A stretch of DNA of 33,311 nucleotides from Gemmatimonadaceae bacterium (GTDB lineage: Bacteria > Gemmatimonadota > Gemmatimonadetes > Gemmatimonadales > Gemmatimonadaceae), in assembly GCA_025453855.1 (NCBI GenBank), contig JALOPO010000002.1:1-33311 (forward strand), in the 5' to 3' direction. A program made the position numbers and the translations under genes. Shown here one piece after another: positions 29,717 to 33,311 of this stretch. The notes beneath the pieces were generated by a model that worked only from the letters and a program-made list of their open reading frames with translations, had not been told where the DNA came from and did no database searches. Numbering within the stretch: the first letter of the stretch is position 1; every line of letters begins with the position of its first letter.

Positions 29717-29728
29717 CTAAAGCTCTAG
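29717..29728 (+). promoter_or_regulatory. Operator 1 for the BlaI-type repressor domain
   Basis: CTAAAGCTCTAG is a near-perfect dyad (ideal CTAAAGCTTTAG) and ends one base before the TTGACA box. BlaI/MecI family repressors bind short AT-richer dyads of this kind at their own promoters. The flanking CTC is matched, in reverse complement, beside operator 2, making a larger inverted arrangement around the promoter. Confidence 0.65.
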
Positions 29729-29757
29729 TTGACACCGCCGCCCGGCGCCCCTAGCGT
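29729..29757 (+). promoter_or_regulatory. Sigma70-type promoter of the BlaI-BlaR1 fusion gene
   Basis: A perfect -35 TTGACA (29729-29734) is followed after exactly 17 bases by a -10 TAGCGT (29752-29757, three of six consensus bases including the key TA...T). The expected transcription start is near 29764, giving a leader of about 29 bases with an AGGAG ribosome-binding site at 29781-29785. The promoter lies between two matching operator dyads. Confidence 0.75.
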
Positions 29758-29770
29758 GGGGAGCGAGCAC

Positions 29771-29782
29771 CTAACGCTTTAG
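29771..29782 (+). promoter_or_regulatory. Operator 2 for the BlaI-type repressor domain, overlapping the ribosome-binding site
   Basis: CTAACGCTTTAG is a near-perfect copy of the same CTAAAGCTTTAG dyad with one mismatch. It lies just after the predicted transcription start and shares two bases with the AGGAG ribosome-binding site (29781-29785). Its reverse complement continued outward (CTCCTAAAGCGTTAG) matches operator 1 (CTCCTAAAGCTCTAG) in 13 of 15 bases. Repressor bound here would block polymerase. Confidence 0.65.
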
Positions 29783-29792
29783 GAGACCGCCC

Positions 29793-32700
29793 ATGCCGAC
29801 ATTCACCGAGCGCGAGCTCGACGTGATGACCGTCCTCTGGCAGCTCGGCGACGCAACCGCCGGTGAGGTCCGTGACGCACTCGCCGCCGACGGCCTCGAC
29901 CTCGCGTACAACAGCGTGCTCACGATGCTGCGGATCCTCCAGGAGAAGGGGCACGTCGCGCACGAGGTCGAGGGGCGCGCGCATCGCTTCCGCCCGCTGG
30001 TGCGGCGCGAGGAGGCGGGGCGGAGCGCGGTGCGGCGGCTGGTCGACGGGCTGTTCGATCGGTCGCCGGAGCTGCTGCTCACGCACCTGGTCCGTGACGA
30101 GCGCGTCGATCGCGCCACACTGGAGCGGTTGCGGGCGCTCGTGGAGCACGAGCTGGCCGAGGACGACGCGGGGGCACGCGGCGTCGTGGCGAAGCGGATC
30201 GGGTGGCCGACGCGCTGGGTCTGGCTGGCGGCGATGGTGGCGATGCTCGTGGCGCCGGTGGTGCCGCGCCCCGTTCCGGGACGCCTCGCCTTCACGGCGA
30301 CCACGTTCGCTGCCGTCGACGAACGTGCGGTCGCGCGGACGCGCGAGCGCATCCGTGGTGATGCGCGTGCAGGCGCTGGCGATGAATCCTCGGGTGTTCC
30401 GGGTACCATCGGCAACACGCGCGCGCTGCAGCGCAGGTCGGGCATCGGGACACCGCTCCCACCGGATGCACGCGTGGAGATCACGATGGGGCGTGTCACC
30501 GGCAACGCCGTCGTGTTAGCAGCGAACGACCGCCTGGCATGGGCGGGGCGCGTCGCAGCGGTGGCGTGGTGCGCACTTACCGTGGTCGCGCTGGCGCTGG
30601 TGGGGCTCGCCATCGGGCGGCTCGCGCGCGCGCGGCGTGAGTGGACGCGTGCCGACGAGGCCACGCACGCCGTGATCGCCGAGGCAGCGGGCAGGTCGGT
30701 GCCGGTCTCGATGTCGCGCGCGACTGGACCGGCCGCGTTCGGGCTCGGCGAACTGCAGGTGGTCCTTCCGGCTTGGGTAGGCGAACTGCCCGACGGCGAA
30801 CGCACGCTCCTGCTCGCCCATGAGGCGGCGCACATCCGCGCACATGACCCACGTCTGCTCGCCGCCGCGCTGCTGCCTGTCGCCCTTGCACCATGGCACG
30901 TGCCGCTGCTCGTCGCCTACCGGCGGCTCTGCCGCGCGGTGGAGCACGATTGCGATGCCCGTGTGCTCGCGCGTCACGGCGATGCTCGTGCGTACGGGCG
31001 ACTTCTCGTGCACACGGCCGAGTGGCTGCTCGCCGGACGTGGGGCGTGGCGCGGTGGCCTTGCCGCGCGCTGGATCCTTGCTCCCGTCCCGGCCTTCGCG
31101 GCGTCGCCGACGGAGCTTGAAGGGCGACTGCGCGCCCTCGTGCGCCGTCCCGCGAGCTGGGGCACGCGACTCGGGACGCTGTGCGTGGGGGCGATCGGCG
31201 TGGTGGCGCTGCTCGCAGCCTGCGCGGCACCGTCGCCGACGACGGGATCGTCGCGCATCACGTACGGGGTGTCATCGCTGCCACGGACGTTGCGCGACTC
31301 CATGCGACTGTACGACCGGGTGAATGACCTGCGCATGCGGAGCCGTCTCGAGGCGGTGAGGGATTCGCTCATCGACGCTGCGGCCCTGCAGGCGATTCCG
31401 GCACTCGACACGCTCGCCGGTGTCGATTCACTCAGCATCTGGGTGCTGCTCGACGACGACCTCCGCGCGGTCGCGACACGCGTCGCGCCACGTCACCAGT
31501 TCCTGTGGGCGATGGAGCGCGTCGTCCCGGGCTTCGGCCGGGACACGTACACGGTGGCCACACGCGGTACGCCGGACGCGGCACTCGCCGCGAACGTCAA
31601 CTCGTGGTCCCGCGCCTTTCCGCTGCTCGACCCCGACCGCGTCAACCAGCACGGGGCACGCGAGCTGCGCCTCCCGCAGGGGACGCTCACGGTGCAGTGG
31701 GCGCGCCTGTACGCGGGCGACAGCACATCCACGATGCGGCTCCGCGCGGCTGGCGAGCCACCGCGCGTCCCCGCGTGGTACCGCACGGTGGTCGAAGCGG
31801 TGAGCCGCGACGGCGCGGTCGCCCGGCGCGACTTCGCGGCGGCACTGGACCGGGGCCTGCGCGCGAGCCTCGCATCGCGCTACCCCGAGGCGCTCGACAC
31901 GATTGCCACGCGTGGGGAGTCGTTCGTCTGGCTCGTGCTCGGCCCGACCGGCAATGCCGTCGCGCACGCCACGGGCCGCGCCGGCATGGGCGTGAAGCGC
32001 CCGCGGACCAGCGACGCCACGCCGCTTGCGCGCGCCGTGCCCACCACACCCGAGTCGCAGCTCACCATCGATGACGCCGCGTGGCGCACGAAGTTCCCCA
32101 CGCTCAACCTCACACCCGCGAGCTTCGGCTGGACGTCGTTCCTCGTCGGCACTCGCACCGTGAACGTGCTCTGGGTGCTCACCGATGTCTCCCTCGCCGG
32201 CGGCTCCCGTACCGCGCCGGCCGCCGGCGCGCCAGGCGCTACGCCGGCTCTCGTCGCCGACACGGTGCTCGCGATGGCGCAAGCACTCCCCACCGCACCA
32301 GCGCTCGCAGCGACGCCGGCACTCGCCACGACACCAGCGCGCGCCGCAACGCCGGCACTCCCCGCAGCGCACGCCCCCGCGGCAGCACAGGCAGTCGACG
32401 CACGCCGCGCCGACTCGCTCATCGCCGATGCCTACGTCGACGCCCATGCCGCGCAATCCGCGCGCGTCGAGCGGCTCCGTCGCTCGGTGCGACGCGCGCT
32501 GTCGGCCCGTGAGGCCGCGAACATGGACCGCCTCCTGCGCAGCACCATCGTCACCGCGCGCCCCGAGCTCCTGCGTGGCCGCCGCACCGACGCCGACTTC
32601 GTCTGGCTCGTCTTCGACTCCACCGGACAGGTCGTCGCCAGCGACACCGGGCGCGCCGGTCTCGGTGTCAAGGTCGACGGCTGGCGCGGCGAACTTCTCC

Positions 32701-32873
32701 CGTTGCCGCGCGCCACCGACGTCACCGCACGTGACTCGCTGGTGCTCGACCCGCGGGCGTTCCGCACCAAGTTCGCCGGACGCGTGCATCGCGGGAGCGG
32801 CTACACCTGGCAAGGGCTCACCCTCCCCAACGGACAGATCAACGTCCTCTGGACCGTCGCGGCACGCGACTGA
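29793..32873 (+). CDS. BlaI-BlaR1 fusion: DNA-binding repressor joined to an M56 membrane metalloprotease
   Basis: This is one open frame of 1026 aa. Residues 1-125 are a complete BlaI/MecI winged-helix repressor with dimerisation region (TERELDVMTVLWQLGDATAG, NSVLTMLRILQEKGHV). After a short linker it enters M56/BlaR1 sequence at WPTRWVWLAAMVAMLVAPVV (helix about 141-157), which corresponds to the second helix of ordinary M56 proteins; the first is absent. A helix at 254-275 precedes the gluzincin domain with HEAAH (343-347) and third-ligand region EHDCDARVL (384-392). A last helix lies at 459-479. Residues 490-1026 are extracytoplasmic, with three divergent repeats and an Ala/Thr/Pro-rich linker (about 809-865). 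No penicillin-binding domain is seen. A promoter with two operators precedes it. A partial gene follows after 19 nt. Confidence 0.93.
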   Translation: MPTFTERELDVMTVLWQLGDATAGEVRDALAADGLDLAYNSVLTMLRILQEKGHVAHEVEGRAHRFRPLVRREEAGRSAVRRLVDGLFDRSPELLLTHLVRDERVDRATLERLRALVEHELAEDDAGARGVVAKRIGWPTRWVWLAAMVAMLVAPVVPRPVPGRLAFTATTFAAVDERAVARTRERIRGDARAGAGDESSGVPGTIGNTRALQRRSGIGTPLPPDARVEITMGRVTGNAVVLAANDRLAWAGRVAAVAWCALTVVALALVGLAIGRLARARREWTRADEATHAVIAEAAGRSVPVSMSRATGPAAFGLGELQVVLPAWVGELPDGERTLLLAHEAAHIRAHDPRLLAAALLPVALAPWHVPLLVAYRRLCRAVEHDCDARVLARHGDARAYGRLLVHTAEWLLAGRGAWRGGLAARWILAPVPAFAASPTELEGRLRALVRRPASWGTRLGTLCVGAIGVVALLAACAAPSPTTGSSRITYGVSSLPRTLRDSMRLYDRVNDLRMRSRLEAVRDSLIDAAALQAIPALDTLAGVDSLSIWVLLDDDLRAVATRVAPRHQFLWAMERVVPGFGRDTYTVATRGTPDAALAANVNSWSRAFPLLDPDRVNQHGARELRLPQGTLTVQWARLYAGDSTSTMRLRAAGEPPRVPAWYRTVVEAVSRDGAVARRDFAAALDRGLRASLASRYPEALDTIATRGESFVWLVLGPTGNAVAHATGRAGMGVKRPRTSDATPLARAVPTTPESQLTIDDAAWRTKFPTLNLTPASFGWTSFLVGTRTVNVLWVLTDVSLAGGSRTAPAAGAPGATPALVADTVLAMAQALPTAPALAATPALATTPARAATPALPAAHAPAAAQAVDARRADSLIADAYVDAHAAQSARVERLRRSVRRALSAREAANMDRLLRSTIVTARPELLRGRRTDADFVWLVFDSTGQVVASDTGRAGLGVKVDGWRGELLPLPRATDVTARDSLVLDPRAFRTKFAGRVHRGSGYTWQGLTLPNGQINVLWTVAARD

Positions 32874-32892: not shown

Positions 32893-33311
32893 ATGCGCAC
32901 TCTCCTCGCCGCCGCGGCGCTCGTCGCCGCGGCCATCGCCCCCGGCGCGCTCGCCGCCCAGCAGCCTTCCGTACCTGCCACCCCCGCACGCCCCGACACG
33001 CTCGTCGGCCGCGTCGCCGCCGACAGCGGTGCCGCGCCCGACTCCATCGACGTAATCGTCACGCGCGGCCCCGATCGCGCCACTTTCCGCACGCGCACCG
33101 ACGCCCAGGGCCGCTGGCGCCTCGTCGTCGACCCGGGCACCGGCGACTACCTCGTCTACGTCACCGCACCGGGCTTCGTCGCACAGCGTCGCCGGATCAC
33201 GCGCGCCGCCACCGAGCAGCGCTTCACCATCGACATCGTGCTCACGCGCACCGCCGTGCAGCAGCTCGCACGCGTCGAGGTCAAGGCGAGCAAGCGCAAG
33301 GCGCCCGATCG
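32893..33311 (+). CDS. Secreted protein with carboxypeptidase-regulatory-like domain (3' end cut by window edge)
   Basis: Only the first 139 codons are visible. A signal peptide (MRTLLAAAALVAAAIAPGALAAQQ) is followed by a short Pro/Ala spacer. A beta-sandwich of the carboxypeptidase-regulatory type then spans about residues 35-120 (TLVGRVAADSG, then TDAQGRWRLVVDPGTGDYLVYVTAPGF and RRITR). The visible end, 'QLARVEVKASKRKAP', resembles the junction to a TonB-dependent receptor plug or barrel, which often follows such a domain. It would then be an outer-membrane protein. It starts 19 nt after the BlaI-BlaR1 fusion gene and is probably co-transcribed, so it may be a target of that regulator. Confidence 0.85.
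   Translation, partial: MRTLLAAAALVAAAIAPGALAAQQPSVPATPARPDTLVGRVAADSGAAPDSIDVIVTRGPDRATFRTRTDAQGRWRLVVDPGTGDYLVYVTAPGFVAQRRRITRAATEQRFTIDIVLTRTAVQQLARVEVKASKRKAPD

Follow-up and report, generated by a model that had tools for sequence, protein, structure and literature searches.

We found, in a draft genome of a Gemmatimonadaceae bacterium, a gene in which a BlaI-type repressor continues into an M56 metalloprotease that lacks its first transmembrane helix (TM1). Comparison with related loci suggests that this gene is best explained by a deletion in a single lineage, and we propose, with a probability of roughly 0.4, that it is a lineage-specific deletion fusion whose product, tethered to the membrane, probably represses its own promoter until its own protease relieves the repression. 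The source is one draft MAG (3.19 Mb in 561 contigs, 74% complete), and the window, i.e., the whole stretch of 33,311 nucleotides that was analyzed, is an entire contig.

Table 1. Features of the fused gene and its promoter (positions in the window)
Feature	Positions	Strand	Basis or remark
Left BlaI-like box, CTAAAGCTCTAG, directly 5' of the -35 element	29717..29728	+	position and CTA...TAG form common to most orthologous promoters
Promoter: TTGACA, 17-nt spacer, weak -10 TAGCGT	29729..29757	+	most of the compared blaI promoters have TTGACA here
Right BlaI-like box, CCTAACGCTTTAGG, overlapping the AGGAG ribosome-binding site	29770..29783	+	orthologous promoters, sequence
Fused gene, 1026 aa	29793..32873	+	single ORF
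BlaI/MecI/CopY-type repressor domain, residues 1-122	29793..30158	+	Pfam PF03965 at 5-118; 76% identity to L009 BlaI
Junction, residues 123-138, EDDAGARGVVAKRIGW; site of lost blaI stop, M56 start and TM1	30159..30206	+	78 nt between anchors vs 125-220 nt in relatives
TM2 of M56 (remaining), residues 139-157	30207..30263	+	hydropathy, alignments; helix 140-153 in model
Long variable loop between TM2 and TM3 (EL1 equivalent)	30264..30557	+	hydropathy, alignments
TM3, residues 256-274	30558..30614	+	hydropathy, model
HEAAH zinc motif, residues 343-347	30819..30833	+	H, E and H are invariant alignment columns
EHDCD, gluzincin ExxxD motif, residues 384-388	30942..30956	+	E and D invariant
APVPAFAAS, residues 430-438	31080..31106	+	profile alignment to 8exp
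TM4, residues 460-478, ending in lipobox-like LLAAC	31170..31226	+	hydropathy, sequence
Presumed sensor part, ~547 aa	31230..32870	+	no Pfam match; homology to L009 over the first ~325 aa, followed by ~220 aa that L009 lacks

A single reading frame encodes a BlaI domain and an M56 protease

The sequence as given does contain the fused frame: no internal stop occurs between positions 29793 and 32873 of the forward strand, and one frame of 1,026 codons holds both domains, which are separate repressor and protease genes in BlaI/BlaR1-type systems. The N-terminal part belongs to the BlaI/MecI/CopY repressors, since Penicillinase_R (PF03965) matches residues 5 to 118 over the whole domain (model positions 2 to 114 of 115; E value, 9.6e-27; 94.1 bits against a cut-off of 22.6). 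Peptidase_M56 (PF05569) matches residues 257 to 409 (E value, 1.2e-12; 48.1 bits against a curated cut-off of 31), and the HExxH and ExxxD motifs are both present. Hydropathy analysis of the fused protein revealed four hydrophobic segments (residues 139 to 157, 256 to 274, 356 to 374, and 460 to 478), the third of which is, judging by homology, the re-entrant one. The first-pass annotation had described a complete BlaI domain running without a stop into M56 sequence at TM2 and a HEAAH protease that stays cytoplasmic; the anatomy of a complete BlaI and an intact protease of the cytosolic type is supported. It was wrong to end the gene at position 31230, which lies about at TM4, as the frame continues to 32873 with a C-terminal part of about 550 aa.

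The sequence profile of the M56 proteins recovers BlaR1 from the PDB (8exp; E value, 1.4e-6), and an AlphaFold model of residues 1 to 486 matches BlaR1 by fold (8exp; E value, 2.4e-4; 8exr; TM score of 0.58 by target). The model has high confidence for the protease only and low confidence for the BlaI part, for which the alignment contained no BlaI rows, and it is not informative on cleavage. In the profile alignment to 8exp, with the column placed by eye, F435 of APVPAFAAS falls at or beside Phe284, the P1' residue of BlaR1 autocleavage.

The first helix of the protease is missing at the junction

The M56 proteins of related loci begin with MIAxWM..., a helix of about residues 1 to 23 and a short stretch, followed by TM2 at a conserved RWxW, so that orthologues have two helices (residues ∼1 to 23 and ∼36 to 58) before the extracellular loop. 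The fused protein has only the second: PTRWVW (residues 139 to 144) and all downstream M56 sequence are kept, hydropathy analysis revealed no hydrophobic segment from the end of the BlaI domain to residue ∼136, and P139 aligned by blastp to residue 33 of the closest orthologue. The loss of the first helix, already noted in the first-pass annotation, is confirmed. A TM1 hidden in another frame at the junction was ruled out, as none was found and the spacing itself is short.

As anchors for this spacing, we took one fixed residue of BlaI and the R of RWxW. It is 78 nt in the fused gene, compared with 125 to 220 nt (median, 143) in separate pairs and with 158 and 185 nt in the nearest relatives, L048 and L009. 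The deficit is therefore 47 to 142 nt (median, 65), amounting to 80 nt against L048 and 107 nt against L009, and equals 2 modulo 3 for all separate pairs but one; as the two genes do not share a frame, such a loss brings them into one. Roughly 65 to 110 nt thus appear to be missing, covering the blaI stop, the M56 start, and M56 residues 1 to ∼20. The simplest account is one deletion of this size, reaching from shortly ahead of the blaI stop to M56 codon ∼21, that would have removed the stop, the overlapping ATGA start, and the first helix together; given the assembly, their loss is shown by the comparison with relatives.

The fusion might be nominal, with two proteins still made through cleavage at the junction or through internal initiation, for which an in-frame GTG just 5' of TM2 (GVVAKRIG, near 30186) would be available. 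We consider this highly improbable: the BlaI part lacks a stop codon and could be freed by proteolysis only, and the product of an internal start would still lack TM1.

Related genomes keep two separate genes

We then compared the locus with 35 distinct blaI-M56 pairs from the family, the order, and the same genome. All 35 consist of two genes in different frames with TM1 kept, nearly always with a 4-base ATGA or GTGA overlap. The Gemmatimonadota pairs L009 (genome G018) and L048 (G003) and the intact two-gene paralogue on contig C8 of the same genome resemble the fused gene in having an orthologous repressor (up to 76 to 78% identity to its BlaI part), an M56 protein 42% identical over its whole length and more so in the protease, and the same promoter layout; they differ in being two genes with a 4-nt overlap and TM1 present. 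Further BlaI genes are present in the same genome.

No second uninterrupted fusion was found in ∼310 genomes (179 Gemmatimonadaceae and samples of 149 to 200 from the class and the phylum), in large searches that scored 3 to 5 candidates per genome and that very divergent fusions could escape. Likewise, none was found among plasmid records, where 10/10 matches are annotated as separate BlaI and M56 genes, and the open-access literature yielded no report of a BlaI-M56 fusion. L087 (contig C80 of genome G227), the single match that extended over both domains, was rejected: its M56 gene, beside blaI, has a near-repeat that partly duplicates the M56 N terminus, frame changes, and three TGA stops between BlaI and the protease. 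The recurrence across Gemmatimonadota that the first-pass annotation had asked about was thus not seen, and the arrangement it had named as refuting its reading, separate genes with the helix present, is that of all relatives examined, which does not prove the fusion false. Together, these results point to a deletion in a single lineage or an error in one assembly, not to an established architecture, and the absence of recurrence leaves no evidence of selection for the fusion. We treat the fusion as a one-off: both its function and its very existence depend on a single assembly, the sole genome of its genus.

An error would mean that the assembly dropped ∼65 to 110 nt or took the allele of a minor strain, and that the organism has the usual two genes, as all relatives do; the fragmentation and 74% completeness of the MAG are in keeping with this. 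However, a graph assembler requires a shared k-mer to skip sequence, direct repeats across the breakpoints in relatives do not exceed 11 nt, and no 21-mer at the junction is repeated within the window; a k-mer mis-join is therefore not apparent. The flanks of the junction are clean and in frame on both sides, and no second allele or version of the locus was found in the assembly. We regard an artifact as rather unlikely. An in-frame loss has a chance of one in three, so the open frame alone is weak evidence, and it is unremarkable for a working and a dead allele alike.

A real fusion could also be a recent deletion allele that is dead or dysregulated, with the repressor constitutive, trapped, or inactive and paralogous pairs covering the function. 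Such an allele is nearly as likely as a working tethered repressor: a single deletion step is a simple way to lose function, no recurrence was seen in the ∼310 genomes, TM1 is universal elsewhere, and the intact C8 paralogue and other BlaI genes are at hand. Since every relative keeps TM1, its loss may harm the protease. On the other hand, the 1,026-codon frame has no further lesions, the catalytic motifs and the promoter boxes are intact, and divergence is not accelerated. In a relative-rate test, which is blind to recent loss of function, the fused lineage had no significant excess of amino acid changes over L009 (7 versus 6 in the protease), and there is thus no sign of long decay.

Promoter and putative operators

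Two conserved dyad boxes, putative operators recognized from sequence, flank the promoter of the fused gene (Table 1). Most blaI-M56 pairs of the family share this layout, in which TTGACA directly follows a first CTA...TAG box and a second such box lies near the start. A generic promoter scan made no call at 29729 to 29757, owing to the weak -10 element.

Proposed topology and mechanism

BlaR1 with its four helices has both termini outside, as seen by cryo-EM (PMC9834060), which agrees with the outside N terminus assumed in the first-pass annotation. The protein is dimeric, cleaves BlaI directly, and also cleaves itself in cis (PMC9834060). Given the BlaR1 topology, loss of TM1 should place the N terminus of the fused protein inside, so that repressor and protease would share the cytoplasm. 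We propose that the working tethered repressor would insert into the membrane by three helices and the re-entrant loop, keeping both the BlaI domain and the zinc protease in the cytoplasm and the C-terminal part outside. The tethered BlaI part would bind the two boxes at 29717 to 29783 and repress its own promoter; upon a signal sensed by the outer part, the protease would cut the BlaI part in cis or in the dimer partner and relieve repression. Since dimeric BlaR1 cuts both BlaI and itself, tethered BlaI would be a plausible substrate; the pairing of a tethered BlaI dimer with a dimeric protease seems geometrically reasonable, and self-release by self-cleavage is possible. Membrane-tethered BlaI may fail to reach its operators. 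The full one-component scheme, in which a tethered repressor with its own metalloprotease and outer sensor derepresses by cutting its own BlaI part or that of its dimer partner, is less likely than not.

The fused gene shares with BlaI/BlaR1 (MecI/MecR1) of Staphylococcus and Bacillus a BlaI-type repressor, an M56 gluzincin protease with HExxH and ExxxD, helices matching TM2 to TM4, and BlaI-like boxes at its own promoter, but it encodes one polypeptide instead of two, lacks TM1, and has no penicillin-binding sensor domain that we could find. Repressor and inactivating activity are also joined in one chain in HTH-ImmA/IrrE (COG2856) fusions and in self-cleaving repressors such as LexA; these are soluble, have unrelated protease folds, and are not membrane sensors, so that the likeness is one of analogy only. 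If functional, the fused gene would show that one small deletion is enough to merge a two-protein signaling route into a single chain, and it would offer a simple construct for distinguishing cis from trans cleavage of BlaI by BlaR1-type proteases and for probing their need for TM1. As one sequence from one draft genome, its main worth for now is as a testable case.

The C-terminal part

The protein is not BlaR1 in the strict sense: the C-terminal part has no Pfam match, so that the penicillin-binding (SxxK) domain of the beta-lactam sensor was not detected, and the NCBIfam model for BlaR1 reaches 14 bits, its cut-off being 400. We place the protein in the broad BlaI-M56 group; its C-terminal part is lineage-specific. 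The L009 orthologue lacks the last ∼220 residues of the fused protein; these extra residues (32200 to 32870) follow an Ala/Pro-rich linker and resemble the preceding domain by eye (FVWLV..TG...GRAG.GVK occurs twice).

TM4 ends in a lipobox-like xxxC in the fused protein (LLAAC, 31209 to 31223) and in roughly three quarters of the Gemmatimonadota M56 proteins listed, among them L009, L054, L056, L059, L062, L066 to L069, L071, L082, and L083. This motif might direct signal peptidase II to the outer part for cleavage and lipidation, a step comparable to the signal-peptidase cut that has been reported for BlaR1. Downstream of the fused gene, positions 32893 to 33311 hold the start of a gene with a signal peptide-like N terminus and a carboxypeptidase regulatory-like domain (PF13620), truncated by the contig end.
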